Assembly (NCBI GenBank): GCA_000383115.1
Contig: KB910588.1
Span: forward strand, 3,850-67,849
Reading direction: 5' to 3'
DNA from: an alpha proteobacterium SCGC AAA015-N04
GTDB taxonomy: Bacteria; Pseudomonadota; Alphaproteobacteria; Puniceispirillales; Marisalimonadaceae
DNA length: 64,000 bases
Below the pieces are notes generated by a model that saw nothing but the letters and a program-made list of their open reading frames with translations, was not told where the DNA came from and made no database searches. Both the position numbers and the translations under genes were made by a program. Shown one piece after another: positions 10,748-15,679 of this stretch; the stretch's first letter is position 1; each line of letters begins with the position of its first letter.

Positions 10748-11677
10748 ATGGAAAATATTTTCAAAGGTTGTATGCCAGCTCTTATGACGCCATGTAACCA
10801 AGATCTTTCTCCAAATTTTGATTTACTCGTGAAAAAAGCTAATGAACTGATGAATTATGGAATGTCAGCCGTAATTTATTGTGGATCAATGGGAGATTGG
10901 CCGTTATTGACTGATGAAGAAAGACAAGAGGGTGTCACTAGATTAGTTAAAGCTGGTATTCCCACAATTGTGGGCACTGGTTCAATTAATTCTAAAAAAG
11001 CAACTGGACATGCAGTGCACGCTCAAGAAGTGGGTGCTTTAGGTCTCATGGTTATCCCAAGAGTTTTATCTAGGGGGCCATCACTTTCAGCTCAAAGAGA
11101 ACATTTTTCATCTATTTTAAGAGGAGCGCCTAAACTTCCTGCTGTTATTTACAATAGTCATTATTATGGGTTTTCAACAAAAGCAGATTTATTTTTTGAT
11201 TTAAGAAAAGAATATCCAAATTTGGTTGGTTTTAAAGAATTTGGGGGTGCTAAAGATCTTAGTTATGCTGCAGAACATATTACTTCCAAAGATAAAAATA
11301 TATCTTTGATGATTGGTGTAGACACAACTGTTTATCATGGCTATGTGAATTGTGGTGCGGTCGGTGCAATAACAGGAGTAGGAAATGCGTTGCCAAAAGA
11401 AGTATTACATTTAATTGATTTATGCGAAAAAGCTACACAAGGCGATTCTTTAGCTAGAGAAAAAGCTAAAGAACTTGAAAGCGCTCTTGCAGTTTTGTCA
11501 TCGTTTGATGAGGGACCAGATCTAGTACTTTATTATAAATATTTAATGGTCCTAAATGGTGAAAAAGAATACGATCTTCATTTTAATCCAACTGATAGCC
11601 TGGGTGAAAGTCAGAAAAAATATGCTGAAAATCAATTTAACTTATTTAAAAACTGGTATCGAAACTGGAATAAGTAA
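10748..11677 (+). CDS. Dihydrodipicolinate synthase / N-acetylneuraminate lyase family aldolase
   Basis: A 309-residue TIM-barrel class I aldolase. The Schiff-base lysine is Lys163 in Gly-Phe-Lys-Glu-Phe, with the family tyrosine at 135 (Tyr-Asn-Ser). The substrate-carboxylate loop reads Cys-Gly-Ser-Met-Gly-Asp-Trp (45-51) instead of the Gly-Thr-Thr-Gly-Glu of lysine-pathway DapA. That difference and the SDR neighbours argue for a catabolic 2-oxo-acid aldolase or dehydratase, not lysine biosynthesis. It ends the plus-strand run; gene-poor DNA follows. Confidence 0.8.
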   Translation: MENIFKGCMPALMTPCNQDLSPNFDLLVKKANELMNYGMSAVIYCGSMGDWPLLTDEERQEGVTRLVKAGIPTIVGTGSINSKKATGHAVHAQEVGALGLMVIPRVLSRGPSLSAQREHFSSILRGAPKLPAVIYNSHYYGFSTKADLFFDLRKEYPNLVGFKEFGGAKDLSYAAEHITSKDKNISLMIGVDTTVYHGYVNCGAVGAITGVGNALPKEVLHLIDLCEKATQGDSLAREKAKELESALAVLSSFDEGPDLVLYYKYLMVLNGEKEYDLHFNPTDSLGESQKKYAENQFNLFKNWYRNWNK

Positions 11678-12228
11678 AAAGCAAATAATTAAATTACATT
11701 AAATACTTCGTTTATTATTATTTAACTTTTGATTTGAAGACTTATTAGATTATTACTATTTTATCATTTAAACTTTACTAGCCTATTTGAATAAAAGACT
11801 AACTAATGTGTCATCTGTTAAGTCTAGACCAACACCTTTTATTAGTCTTAATCCAAATAACTCTATCTATATGGAAATAGTGTTGAAGACGAGAGGACTC
11901 GAACTTCTGACCTACTGTTTAGAAGTATAGGGGTTTATGGTATACTCTTTAAATTTAGTCAATAAAATCACATCTCTACATTATCTCTATAAGAGAATAC
12001 GAAAACATCTCATGCACCTAGACATAGAAATTTAAAATCATCTGTAACAATCCAGATACCATATATTCCGATAACGGGTAAAAATATTACTAATTAAATT
12101 AATAGAAGATTTTTAGGGTATTCTAATATACCTATTTTATAACAAAGACATTAGAGGTAAATGATATTTGATATATATTGTCTTACTTTTAGATTAATCA
12201 ATGCATACTTTAAGTGATAATATTATCT
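11678..12228. other. 551-base gene-poor region holding a tRNA remnant
   Basis: No credible complete gene is visible. The stretch contains the decayed tRNA-Arg 3' half (separate entry). Just 3' of it on the minus strand is a short open stretch ending at about 11790 whose peptide includes GLRLIKGVGLDLTDDTLVSL. That piece looks like old coding sequence but has an in-frame stop shortly upstream and no start. The rest is AT-rich with no strong hairpin. Confidence 0.5.
11881..11930 (-). pseudogene. Decayed 3' half of tRNA-Arg(TCT)
   Basis: Read on the minus strand, these 50 bases align without gaps to bases 15003-15052 of the intact tRNA-Arg. I count 39 matches of 50, and 34 of the last 40. The match covers part of the anticodon loop (TTCTAA), variable region, T arm (TTCGAGTCC) and acceptor 3' strand. 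The T stem carries a G-to-A change that breaks a pair, and the CCA end reads ACA. No 5' half can be found next to it. It is in inverted orientation to the intact gene. Confidence 0.75.
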
Positions 12229-13047
12229 TTAAACTTTTTTTGATATTGCACCAGAGTAAACTTTTTTTATTTTGTTTTCTAGATAATTACTAAGATCTTT
12301 TCTGTTGTTGAAGTTTTTTGTATTTACTACATCTAGATATATTAATCTAACTTTTAAAGACTTCAAATATACTAACGACGATAGGTGAGGTTTAAGATCC
12401 ATATCACCATACCATGCTATAATGGGCCTCAACCATCTATTAATTGGTATTCCATTTAAGTCTGAGTATACTAAAACTATTGGCTGAATGATAAAATTTT
12501 GACCTTCTAAGGCCGAAAAAGAGCTTGATTTGAAATCTAATACTCTATTTCCATCAGAAGTTGTTCCCTCAGGAAAAATAAATATTTTCTCATCAGAGGA
12601 TAATAATTTAAGAATTTTATTTTTTTGATTAAGGGTTTTAGATCTATTTCTACTTATAAATACTGTTCTACCTAACTTAGCTAAAAAACCTAATAATGGC
12701 CAATCTGCAACTTCAGATTTTGCAACAAATCTAACTGGGCAAATAGAACCTAGTATAGGAATATCTAGATAAGAAAGATGGTTACTTATATAGAGATTAG
12801 ACTTGTTTGATTTATCTATTTCACCTTCAAATTCAATTTGAATTGATAAAAGCCATAAAATTAATTTATGAAAAATTACAGGTAAACACTTTCCAAAAAA
12901 AGGAATTAATTTACCAGAAATGACTTCTAGAAATATTAAAGGAATAGAAAATAAGACAAAAAATATTAACTTTAGAATAAAAATAAAATGATCTAGGTAT
13001 GATAGTTTATCAATCGGACTAAAATATGTATTTTGATTAACTATCAT
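12229..13047 (-). CDS. olsA: Lyso-ornithine lipid O-acyltransferase (PlsC family)
   Basis: A 272-residue membrane-associated acyltransferase of the PlsC family. The catalytic His-x4-Asp is Asn-His90-Leu-Ser-Tyr-Leu-Asp95, and the acceptor-binding motif is Phe-Pro-Glu-Gly-Thr-Thr at 158-163. Hydrophobic segments lie at about 20-45. By family alone it could be a phosphatidic acid synthase. Because it follows an OlsB-type N-acyltransferase after 11 bases, the best call is OlsA, which adds the second fatty acid to lyso-ornithine lipid. Ornithine lipids are phosphorus-free and are useful under phosphate limitation. Confidence 0.75.
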   Translation of the reverse strand: MIVNQNTYFSPIDKLSYLDHFIFILKLIFFVLFSIPLIFLEVISGKLIPFFGKCLPVIFHKLILWLLSIQIEFEGEIDKSNKSNLYISNHLSYLDIPILGSICPVRFVAKSEVADWPLLGFLAKLGRTVFISRNRSKTLNQKNKILKLLSSDEKIFIFPEGTTSDGNRVLDFKSSSFSALEGQNFIIQPIVLVYSDLNGIPINRWLRPIIAWYGDMDLKPHLSSLVYLKSLKVRLIYLDVVNTKNFNNRKDLSNYLENKIKKVYSGAISKKV

Positions 13048-13058
13048 ACTCGATCTGA

Positions 13059-13916
13059 TTAATTTAAAAATTTATTCTTATATTTTTGGTTTATGTTGAC
13101 TGTTTGAACAACTACACAAAAGTCAATTGTATTAAATTCATAATCAACAAAAATATCTTTACTTACTTTTCCACCAACTCTAAGGTATCCTTTAAATAAT
13201 GGTGGAAGTTTAGCAAAAATTTTAAAATCATTCTCATTACTGTTATTATTATCGTAAATAATATGATTATTATTGACTATACTTTTAATTGACATTTCTT
13301 CTGGAAGAGAAAAGTTACTTCTCAAATAAGATATCTCTTTTGAAAATTCTTGTACATCTATTCCTGGAAAACTTGCACATCCCAACAAGACTTTTATATC
13401 GTATAATTTAACATATTCAGCAATCGCTTTCCAGAGTAAGTTCATTGTTGTTCCATTTCTGTAATTTTTATGAACACAAGATCTTCCTAATTCTAATATA
13501 TGTCTATGATTGTATGAATTAAGTATATTAGTAAGGTCAAACTCTGATGAAGTATAAAACCCTCCTGAAGACAAAGCTACATCACCACGTATTAATCTAT
13601 AAGTCCCTATAATTTTATTTTTTAAACCTTTTATCTTTTTATCTACTACAATTAAATGATCTGCAAATTTATCGATTTTGTCGTAATCTAATTGCATCAT
13701 TTTTTTCTGAAAATTTGGTATAGCTTTTTTTTCTTTATAAAAAACAGAGTATCTTAGAGCTTGGGCATGTCTTAACTCTGATTTTGTATCTGCTAGTTTA
13801 ATAATGAAATCTCTAAATTCAATTTTTTTAAATATTTTATTTTTAAAAAGAAAATTTATATTTTGACTGTTTGGCCGTTTAAAACCTAAATCTTTAGGTA
13901 CTTTTTCAAGTAACAT
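13059..13916 (-). CDS. olsB: L-ornithine N(alpha)-acyltransferase
   Basis: A 285-residue GNAT-related protein of the OlsB / Acetyltransf_5 type. Characteristic stretches are Ala-Gln-Ala-Leu-Arg-Tyr-Ser-Val-Phe-Tyr-Lys-Glu, Glu-Leu-Gly-Arg-Ser-Cys-Val-His-Lys-Asn-Tyr-Arg, and Leu-Leu-Gly-Cys-Ala-Ser-Phe-Pro-Gly. It transfers a 3-hydroxyacyl chain from acyl carrier protein to ornithine, the first step of ornithine-lipid synthesis. It is upstream of olsA in a two-gene minus-strand operon. I looked for a Pho-box-like repeat upstream and saw none. The pair is surrounded by decaying DNA and tRNA-Arg pieces, so acquisition by transfer is possible. Confidence 0.8.
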   Translation of the reverse strand: MLLEKVPKDLGFKRPNSQNINFLFKNKIFKKIEFRDFIIKLADTKSELRHAQALRYSVFYKEKKAIPNFQKKMMQLDYDKIDKFADHLIVVDKKIKGLKNKIIGTYRLIRGDVALSSGGFYTSSEFDLTNILNSYNHRHILELGRSCVHKNYRNGTTMNLLWKAIAEYVKLYDIKVLLGCASFPGIDVQEFSKEISYLRSNFSLPEEMSIKSIVNNNHIIYDNNNSNENDFKIFAKLPPLFKGYLRVGGKVSKDIFVDYEFNTIDFCVVVQTVNINQKYKNKFLN

Positions 13917-14040
13917 TTTACACCTATTAAATTAATTAAGTTGTGAGTTTCATAATTAATTATTAAATTTATTTTACTTTTATATTAAAATATTTTTACA
14001 TTTTTAGTAAGTACTTAAAGAAGCTGAAAGTGAAAAAAGA

Positions 14041-14167
14041 GTGAAATGGAATAATCTAAGTAGTTTACTTGTTTTTCCAATCGGGTATTTGGGCAACATA
14101 TGAAAATACAAATCAAGCAATAGATGTTGCTAATCAAAGAGAAATGTACTTAAAAGGCATTAAGTAA
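14041..14167 (+). pseudogene. Frameshifted small ORF remnant
   Basis: A GTG-initiated frame at 14041 reads VKWNNLSSLLVFPIGYLGNI and then stops. In the next frame (frame 2) the sequence carries on sensibly through GIWATYENTNQAIDVANQRE to a TAA at 14165-14167. Joined by a single-base shift near 14090 these would give a roughly 45-residue protein with an N-terminal hydrophobic anchor. I recognise no family. A sequencing error is the alternative to decay. Confidence 0.35.
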
Positions 14168-14482
14168 AAAAAGAACTGTGATATAACCAGATAAGCTGTT
14201 ACTTTGAAACACATACATACCACTGAGAGTGATTTATTAAGACAAACTCCATTTCAATAAAGTTTATAAATCTCTTATCAAATTTGTTTCTTGAATAAAA
14301 TTTAAAAAAAATTACTTAATTCGATCCATCCTAAAAAATATAAAATTGCAACTATTATTGAGATAAATATTGTTATTACAATTATCCACATTAGTAGGAC
14401 ATAGGTAAGAACACCTACTTATTAGAGAAGCAATTATAGACCAAACAATATCTACTTCTAATTTATATGTGATATAGTAAAA

Positions 14483-14701
14483 TTAAAAAGCAGCAGCAAT
14501 TAGACCAGCAGGGATTGTAACAGCTTCCCAGGATTGGGCTGTTTAGATTGTATCTACACTGTCGTCATTGTAGCTTTGACTAATATTATATTCATTATTT
14601 ATTCGTCGATGTGCTCGAACAATTTTACATTCATGGCAAATACGATCATGTTTATATTCGTCAGGTAGCAGTGTACCACATTCATTACACCATACAGCTA
14701 A
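14483..14701 (-). pseudogene. Broken small zinc-ribbon protein
   Basis: The minus strand is open from 14701 to a TAA at 14545-14543 and continues in the same frame to a second TAA at 14485-14483. The first part contains Cys-Asn-Glu-Cys followed after 14 residues by Cys-His-Glu-Cys, a clear four-cysteine zinc-ribbon pattern, then basic residues. The second part ends with Pro-Ala-Gly-Leu-Ile-Ala-Ala-Ala-Phe, a hydrophobic tail. There is no ATG, GTG or TTG in the open stretch before the first cysteines and there is an in-frame stop just upstream, so the N-terminus is lost or shifted. Confidence 0.4.
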
Positions 14702-14975
14702 TTATAAGAGACCAACCAACTCAAAATACTTTAAACACAAAAAAATTATTGAAGATTGGTTCCCTAATATTTAAGTATAACCAATATTGATGAACTAATT
14801 AAATATTTAATAACCTAACCCTTTATAAAAATACTACATTCTGGGAATATACAAACGCAAACTGGACTAATTTTTTTTCTATTTTAAAGGATTAAGCCTA
14901 CATTAATTGATATTGTTTGAAAAGAAAATAGATTTATATTGATTTATAATATTTAAAGAATATATTTTTTTGTGT

Positions 14976-15052
14976 GGACGCGTAGCTCAGCTGGATAGAG
15001 CAACTGCCTTCTAAGCAGTAGGTCAGAGGTTCGAATCCTCTCGCGTTCACCA
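14976..15052 (+). tRNA. tRNA-Arg, anticodon TCT
   Basis: This 77-base sequence folds as a full cloverleaf. The acceptor 5' strand GGACGCG pairs with CGCGTTC, and the D arm contains TAGCTCAGCTGG. The anticodon stem ACTGC/GCAGT frames loop CTTCTAA with anticodon TCT at 15010-15012. The T arm AGAGG-TTCGAAT-CCTCT is intact and the CCA is encoded. It reads AGA arginine codons, which are abundant in this AT-rich genome. It is flanked by decayed, inverted pieces of its own sequence. Confidence 0.95.
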
Positions 15053-15274
15053 TTAAATCAACTAAATTTAACTTTCCCAAATCCATTTATACAATTCACA
15101 TAAGACACATATACAGTATCTATGTTAGTAAACTATTGTTTTATTTGCATATTTTAGGGAGCTTCGGTGAAGAGATTTATTAGAATAAGTTTATTTTTCC
15201 AGCTGAGCTACGAAAAAATAATTTGTATTTTTATTACTTAAAAATAATTAAGTCAAAACAAATATTGTAAAAAT
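15053..15274. other. AT-rich spacer after tRNA-Arg
   Basis: No gene is visible. It holds a small hairpin around 15161-15171 (CTTC-GGT-GAAG) and the 15-base inverted copy of the tRNA D arm at 15198-15212. Confidence 0.4.
15198..15212 (-). repeat. Inverted 15-base copy of the tRNA-Arg D arm
   Basis: On the minus strand this reads CGTAGCTCAGCTGGA, identical to 14981-14995 of the intact tRNA-Arg. The match stops on both sides. With the 3' half at 11881-11930 on the same strand, it could be the 5' piece of one interrupted minus-strand tRNA gene. D-arm sequences are shared by many tRNAs, so the parent tRNA is less certain. Confidence 0.5.
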
Positions 15275-15679
15275 TTAGTAATAAAAAATCTTTTGCATAC
15301 ATGTCATTGGTTTTGGTATTTTACTTAAGTCTTCTGTTCCCATTCCTACACTTAATACTATGGATGACAATTTTGAGGTTACTTTATCGAAAGTCCATGC
15401 AAAATCAGTTGTTGTAAAGAAATATTTATCTTCCCAAATGACATAAGCCCCTTGTTTTTCTGCTAACAAATTTCCAATCAATACAAATTTACCTTTTATT
15501 CTTCTATAAACTTTCGGATTATCCATATCTTTCGATCTATCAAATAAAAACTCAAACTTATTATTTGTATCAGAACAATCAAATCCTGCAGATGGAAGAT
15601 GTACATCAATAGCCATAGTTTTAATGGGTAACATAAAAATTATAAAAATCACATAAATCAATTTTTTTTTTGGTAACAC
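15275..15679 (-). CDS. Exported hypothetical protein, 134 aa
   Basis: The protein has a good signal peptide: Met-Leu-Pro-Lys-Lys-Lys, a hydrophobic core of about 15 residues, and probable cleavage at Thr-Met-Ala near residue 23. The mature part is small, mostly beta-like, and has two cysteines (Phe-Asp-Cys-Ser near residue 34 and Met-Thr-Cys-Met near the end) that could pair in the periplasm. No family is recognised. It stands alone between the tRNA-Arg region and the divergent VOC gene. Confidence 0.6.
   Translation of the reverse strand: MLPKKKLIYVIFIIFMLPIKTMAIDVHLPSAGFDCSDTNNKFEFLFDRSKDMDNPKVYRRIKGKFVLIGNLLAEKQGAYVIWEDKYFFTTTDFAWTFDKVTSKLSSIVLSVGMGTEDLSKIPKPMTCMQKIFYY

Follow-up and report, generated by a model that had tools for sequence, protein, structure and literature searches.

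An inverted tRNA-Arg(TCT) gene of a decayed mobile element appears to stand in for the split host gene of an alphaproteobacterium

Introduction

In the alpha proteobacterium SCGC AAA015-N04 (GenBank assembly GCA_000383115.1), a stretch of 64,000 nucleotides (contig KB910588.1, positions 3,850 to 67,849 of the forward strand; the whole stretch is called the window here) contains olsBA, a putative membrane-lipid gene pair, and an intact plus-strand tRNA-Arg. Both are enclosed by two pieces of what an original prediction, made from the letters of the window, took to be one minus-strand tRNA-Arg(TCT) gene split by about 3.3 kb of inserted DNA. Since integration at a tRNA site normally leaves direct repeats, this split and inverted arrangement raises the question of how it came about. 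Inversion, a replaced tRNA and two insertions were put forward, olsBA was suggested to have come in on a now-dead element, and an empty site with one tRNA-Arg in a sister genome, or a relative with olsBA and an integrase at the same place, was expected to support insertion. Here the locus was compared across 40 genomes of the genus, whose members we take to be SAR116-type marine alphaproteobacteria on the basis of one named relative (L021) and general knowledge. The genomes used were incomplete drafts, that of the window (G000) being 67% complete. The comparison points, with a probability that we put at about 0.9, to an element that would have split the sole host tRNA-Arg(TCT) gene, supplied its own copy and then decayed in the window.

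Results

The target site and the split host gene

The two pieces lie between a DHDPS-family gene (10748-11677, plus strand; assigned by Pfam DHDPS and synteny, and present in 29/40 genomes) and a conserved gene for a hypothetical protein of 134 amino acids (15275-15679, minus strand; synteny in 27 genomes), the two host neighbours of the target tRNA. The 3′ piece, on the minus strand, is 39/45 identical to tRNA-Arg(TCT) positions 33-77, with an alignment score of 66 and the core CTTCTAA at 11919-11925. It had been drawn as a 50-base remnant at 11881-11930; its strand and order stood, while the tRNA portion proper ended at 11925 and the following bases, 11926-11939, proved to be element-end sequence common to G035, G009 and G014. 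The other piece had been seen as a 15-base copy of the D-arm at 15198-15212. It is indeed a minus-strand piece, but a longer one, running from 15212 down to the core TTCTAA at 15180-15185, and the 15-base match is the best-preserved portion of a decayed 5′ half. Its score of 37 was higher than any obtained from 30 shuffled 64-kb windows, the best of which reached 33.5.

In 20 of the 40 genomes the site is empty, with one intact tRNA-Arg(TCT) between the DHDPS-family gene and the 134-amino-acid gene in the order DHDPS, about 200 bp, tRNA, about 62 bp, hypothetical gene. In the window the distances to the two host genes are nearly those of the empty site, and when the window flanks were joined at the core and aligned with the empty site of G025, 277/320 aligned bases matched, across the junction. 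Since the empty sites and the joined flanks match, the native gene is assigned to the minus strand and its break to the anticodon loop, at a 7-bp core, CTTCTAA, with 11881-11925 (attR, minus strand) and 15180-15212 (attL, minus strand) read as its 3′ and 5′ halves. The insertion into one minus-strand gene that had been proposed was in this respect borne out. A reader might still take the pieces for chance matches or unrelated tRNA-like debris, both being decayed and one of them short; this has a negligible probability, given that the scores exceed all shuffles, element ends adjoin both pieces, the spacing to both host genes is kept and perfect counterparts exist in sister genomes.

G007 and G019 have 11-13 kb between the tRNA and the DHDPS gene, taken up by a large cluster of metabolic genes, catabolic and ABC-transporter genes among them (L066:3075-16092; L067:1525-12297). 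As occupied sites they were ruled out, the native tRNA beside the cluster being intact and no related integrase being found.

Live elements at the same site in sister genomes

In G035 and G009 the site is occupied in the order 5′ half (positions 1-39), about 160 bp, a complete inverted tRNA-Arg(TCT), the element, and 3′ half (positions 33-77), so that the halves overlap only in positions 33-39, CTTCTAA. The 5′ half in these two genomes has the same position as attL in the window and is there 97-100% identical; the position of attR is shared with G035, G009, G014, G023 and G003. The elements of G035 and G009 code for a tyrosine recombinase and a ParB-methylase fusion, together with a serine recombinase that is truncated in G009. 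The tyrosine integrase is encoded in all five sister elements and deleted in the window; in G023 and G003 the same recombinases adjoin the 3′ half, with the opposite end off the contig. Repeats of TATGTGAAT occur at both element ends, as would be expected for the arm sites of an integrase. From host to host, the integrases share 97-100% identity; for G035 and G009, identity is 97% at the left end but 80% for the DHDPS proteins in the flanks; because the element sequences are so much more alike than the host proteins beside them, the element is judged to have moved.

G014 has the same recombinase set but the ordinary form, in which the tRNA is intact where the native gene belongs and the far end of the element bears a 3′ half. 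Its integrase is nearly identical to that of G035 and G009, yet here the tRNA is rebuilt; a rebuilt tRNA with a displaced fragment in the same orientation (Islander type) is found in G014 and not in the window, G035 or G009. An ordinary tRNA-site island of this kind, with the gene rebuilt at one end and a 3′ fragment at the other, could in principle give rise to the window by a later inversion of the rebuilt end, as has been documented for the split tRNA-Arg(TCT) island of Thermococcus kodakarensis (PMC9897764). However, the ordinary form has two 3′ halves and a single 5′ half, two of each are present in the window, in G035 and in G009, and inversion cannot add a 5′ half; the 5′ half also stands at the native distance from its host neighbour and runs directly into element sequence. 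This origin is therefore very unlikely. Among the explanations offered at the outset, the replaced tRNA is retained, with the intact gene as part of the element; two insertions are unneeded and inversion alone fails the count of halves.

Side observations on these elements include a Methylobacterium-1 RNA near the left end in G014 (Rfam RF01712, 77.8 bits; L061:14602-14703). In G006 (L062:1187-1567) a 5′ half is followed by a related left end, a direct-orientation tRNA-Arg(TCT) of different sequence and then a left end of the G014 type; perhaps the rescue tRNA of one element was the entry point of a second.

No structural phage families were recognised among 10 element proteins scanned, the element integrase was not found in 50,697 phage records or in a scan of IMG/VR, and a viral scan with a 235-amino-acid protein gave no match. 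Plasmid records yielded only integrases 25-32% identical. By eye, element proteins with an H-x-H motif (L059:6684-7391; L105:8487-8984; L106:16676-17158) resemble rolling-circle replication (HUH) proteins; that of L059:6684-7391 had no match in Pfam, PHROG or PDB. An 86-amino-acid element protein (L059:8587-8847) matched a phage clamp-loader family weakly (PHROG 225, E=1e-6), a hint of phage contact.

The decayed copy in the window

Both ends of the element could be located in the window. The right end, CATAAACCCCTATA beside the core (11926-11939, minus strand), matches GATAAACCC(C/T)TTTA at the same place in five sister elements. The left end (15053-15179, minus strand), which separates the 5′ half from the intact tRNA, matches G035 and G009 at 49/53 and 56/76 bases and keeps one arm-type repeat, TATGTGAAT, at 15094-15102. 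Among the 40 genomes, left-end sequence was restricted to G035, G009 and G000, with a part of it in G006, besides two short weak matches. Between the ends, a scrap of the ParB-N6/N4 methylase fusion gene (residues 345-384; 11966-12088, plus strand; tblastn E=1e-9) has the order and strand seen in G014, and a scrap of the gene for a 105-amino-acid lipoprotein (residues 45-105, with stops; 14009-14191, plus strand) matches the G003 element gene (tblastn E=5e-18); the order and orientation of the two scraps agree with those in live elements. The recombinase genes are gone. The window is read as a decayed copy, of which the two ends, parts of two element genes, the inverted tRNA and olsBA have survived. 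What looks by eye like the end of a small zinc-ribbon protein gene (CNECGTLL...CHEC) also lies inside it, at 14540-14700 on the minus strand, and was matched to no element gene.

The rescue tRNA

The intact plus-strand gene, which the original prediction had correctly described, lies at 14976-15052 and was identified by ARAGORN and Rfam (72.2 bits) as a complete tRNA-Arg(TCT), inverted relative to the split gene. It agrees in 77/77 bases with the copies that G035 and G009 carry at this place. It is assigned to the element because the element ends enclose it and the element sequence surrounding it is conserved, its 3′ flank being kept between the window and the sisters (49/53), and is referred to as the rescue tRNA. 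A promoter-like site, TTGATT-16-TATATT, lies 9 bases before it (14939-14966, plus strand), although as a product of a consensus scan this match is close to background. Were the host to have had two tRNA-Arg(TCT) genes already, one of them inverted, an element entering the other would leave a similar picture, and tRNA duplications are generally common. Nothing in this analysis backs such a history, which is extremely unlikely: the intact copy lies between both element ends, the same left-end sequence surrounds it in three lineages, and the empty sites are single-copy, with an inverted second copy in none of the 20.

Full-length perfect copies of tRNA-Arg(TCT) never numbered more than one per genome, the next best full-length match in the genome of the window is a tRNA-Lys, and AGA makes up 73% of the arginine codons in 19 window genes; for these reasons the gene is probably essential. 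The rescue tRNA is the only intact tRNA-Arg(TCT) found among the available contigs.

The olsBA cargo

Two intact genes on the minus strand lie within the dead element, an olsA-like acyltransferase gene (12229-13047; Pfam Acyltransferase, best NCBIfam match OlsA) and an olsB-like N-acyltransferase gene (13059-13916; Pfam Acetyltransf_5, best NCBIfam match OlsB). The enzymes are named by homology, OlsB with 220.9 of the 350 bits and OlsA with 214 of the 300 bits set as NCBIfam equivalog cut-offs, both being the best families even so. Values of dN/dS against relatives were 0.18-0.23 for olsA and 0.21-0.22 for olsB, and a ratio of about 0.2 for both genes fits purifying selection.

Element-borne olsBA was found in G014, G023 and G035, with a fragment in G009, so that relatives with olsBA and an integrase at the same site do exist, as do the empty sites described above. 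Native olsBA of the genus lies elsewhere, in the conserved gene order tsaB-rimI-olsB-olsA-miaB. Element OlsB of G014 and G023 is 92-96% identical to native OlsB of G001, G035 and G016 and just 68-74% identical to native OlsB of the G014 group. Those are the closest relatives of the window, whose chromosomal genes group with theirs, unlike its OlsB, which falls outside their well-supported (99/99) native clade. Because of this placement olsBA is judged to have arrived with the element, and the suggestion that the pair came in on a now-dead element holds, the olsBA-bearing sister elements agreeing with it. It is nevertheless conceivable that the pair is not cargo, and that the host's own genes moved here or were inserted later into the dead element. 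The pair is optional, the lipoprotein gene of G003 following the methylase gene directly without olsBA, and window OlsB is 77% identical to element OlsB of G014 and G023 but is not joined to them in the tree. Weighed against the presence of olsBA inside sister elements, the separate native locus and the position of window OlsB outside the native clade, this alternative is unlikely. Since window OlsB and the G014 pair are not joined in the tree, either two captures or a single old one may have brought olsBA into these elements.

Native olsB is broken in G014 (L080:3364-4253), and on contig C13 of G000 rimI stands next to miaB, with olsBA absent from the native locus (L079:4017-4119); the element copy may stand in for the broken or absent native pair in these cases. 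Loss of native olsBA from the organism of the window was considered and is not claimed. On the window contig, DHDPS and PurB are 95% and 93% identical to the G014 group; MiaB of C13 is 72-77% identical to all relatives and GyrA of C3 is 86-89% identical, about equally far from all. These contigs disagree with that of the window, and the G000 bin (C68, C13 and C3) may be mixed.

More distant relatives at tRNA-Arg(CCT)

More distant integrases, 43-58% identical, occur in another family of the order, where the same design is found on tRNA-Arg(CCT). In G048 and G051 the host gene for tRNA-Arg(CCT) has been cut in two; ARAGORN recognises tRNA-Arg(CCT) when the halves are joined, and a second, different tRNA-Arg(CCT) is found about 120-170 bp further in, directly oriented. 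The corresponding gene of G042 is interrupted by a 16-kb stretch with an inverted rescue tRNA (L108:4963-5252, that is G042:C1:1512962-1513251) whose anticodon loop is interrupted by a 213-base insert resembling a group I intron (Rfam E=7e-10; 42.9 bits, below the gathering score of 50). As a guess, this intron could protect the element's tRNA from being an integration target.

Discussion

Taken together, these findings suggest that an integrative element enters the anticodon loop of an apparently single-copy tRNA-Arg(TCT) gene through a 7-bp core. With the core alone in the attachment site, the host gene would be split and not rebuilt, and the loss would be compensated by a complete tRNA-Arg(TCT) of the element's own, reversed and set in from one end by about 130-160 bp. 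In the window the element would then have died, its recombinases deleted, its methylase and lipoprotein genes cut to scraps and the host tRNA halves decaying, with olsBA remaining open and apparently under purifying selection. The rescue tRNA stayed perfect, as would be expected of a sole source of that tRNA. Sequence comparison shows that the host gene was split, that empty sites and sister elements exist, that the window shares the element ends and has scraps of element genes, and that the inverted tRNA belongs to the element; the joining itself is presumably done by the tyrosine recombinase, and the rescue tRNA is presumably expressed and essential, in which case dependence on it would keep the remnant from loss.

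Several points weigh against this explanation. With no recombinase left in the window, its assignment to the element draws on the ends, the gene scraps and comparison with relatives. Directly 5′ of the rescue tRNA the window is unlike G035/G009 (23/60), so a promoter module would have to have been exchanged or to have diverged. Lastly, a second tRNA-Arg(TCT) may possibly exist elsewhere in the 67%-complete genome of the window.

The evidence also leans, less firmly, towards a wider interpretation in which a SAR116-type family of non-phage elements takes over host tRNA-Arg genes and the tRNA module of a dead element cannot be lost, the takeover being complete and fixed in the window. One integrase (97-100% identical) would then serve both ordinary and tRNA-carrying sites, so that the mode would be set by the attachment site and not by the enzyme. 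The fossil copy in the window would record a lasting outcome, an apparently essential host gene having been permanently replaced by the copy of a mobile element.

The closest known system is the tRNA-dependent lysogeny of mycobacteriophages (Fionnbharth, Gaia and others; Guerrero-Bustamante & Hatfull 2024, PMC10865867). Shared with it are a tyrosine integrase, an attB located within a tRNA gene, an element that brings a complete tRNA of matching isotype, a common core too short for rebuilding the tRNA (8-17 bp there, 7 bp here) and, in both groups, close relatives that switch between rebuilding and carrying the tRNA. The elements described here differ in lacking recognised phage structural genes, in having SAR116-type marine alphaproteobacteria as hosts and in targeting tRNA-Arg; moreover, the copy in the window is a fossil, and no intact tRNA of this type was found besides its rescue tRNA. 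Dependence on the element tRNA has been shown by experiment in the mycobacteriophages and is here a prediction from sequence. An integration mode worked out for temperate phages would thereby extend to elements of ocean bacteria without recognisable phage genes, and to two tRNA-Arg types. The relation of the tRNA-carrying to the ordinary mode was left open in the 2024 paper (PMC10865867), and G014 versus G009/G035 offers a natural, nearly identical pair for it.

With Islander-type tRNA islands (PMC4383910) the elements share the tRNA-gene site, the crossover in the anticodon loop and a tyrosine recombinase, but the window, G035 and G009 lack a rebuilt gene, and their intact tRNA faces the other way. 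The Islander method drops candidates with the wrong orientation of fragment and tRNA (PMC4383910) and would therefore miss the inverted rescue-tRNA form; the pattern may be under-counted because island finders accept only a rebuilt tRNA with its fragment on the same strand. Lo5R7ANS-like prophages of Sinorhizobium (PMC11476347, PMC12429752) are, as described, likewise alphaproteobacterial and reported to replace a host tRNA gene with their own, but are prophages. Tycheposons (PMC10872708) resemble the elements in carrying cargo, in occurring in aquatic bacteria and in using tRNA genes and a tyrosine recombinase; a split host gene and a rescue tRNA are not mentioned in the part of their description consulted. 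A partial literature search found no paper describing these SAR116 elements. Set beside these systems, the design itself is already known, and what is new is the lack of recognised phage genes, the target tRNA, the fossil outcome and the nearly identical integrases with differing mode.

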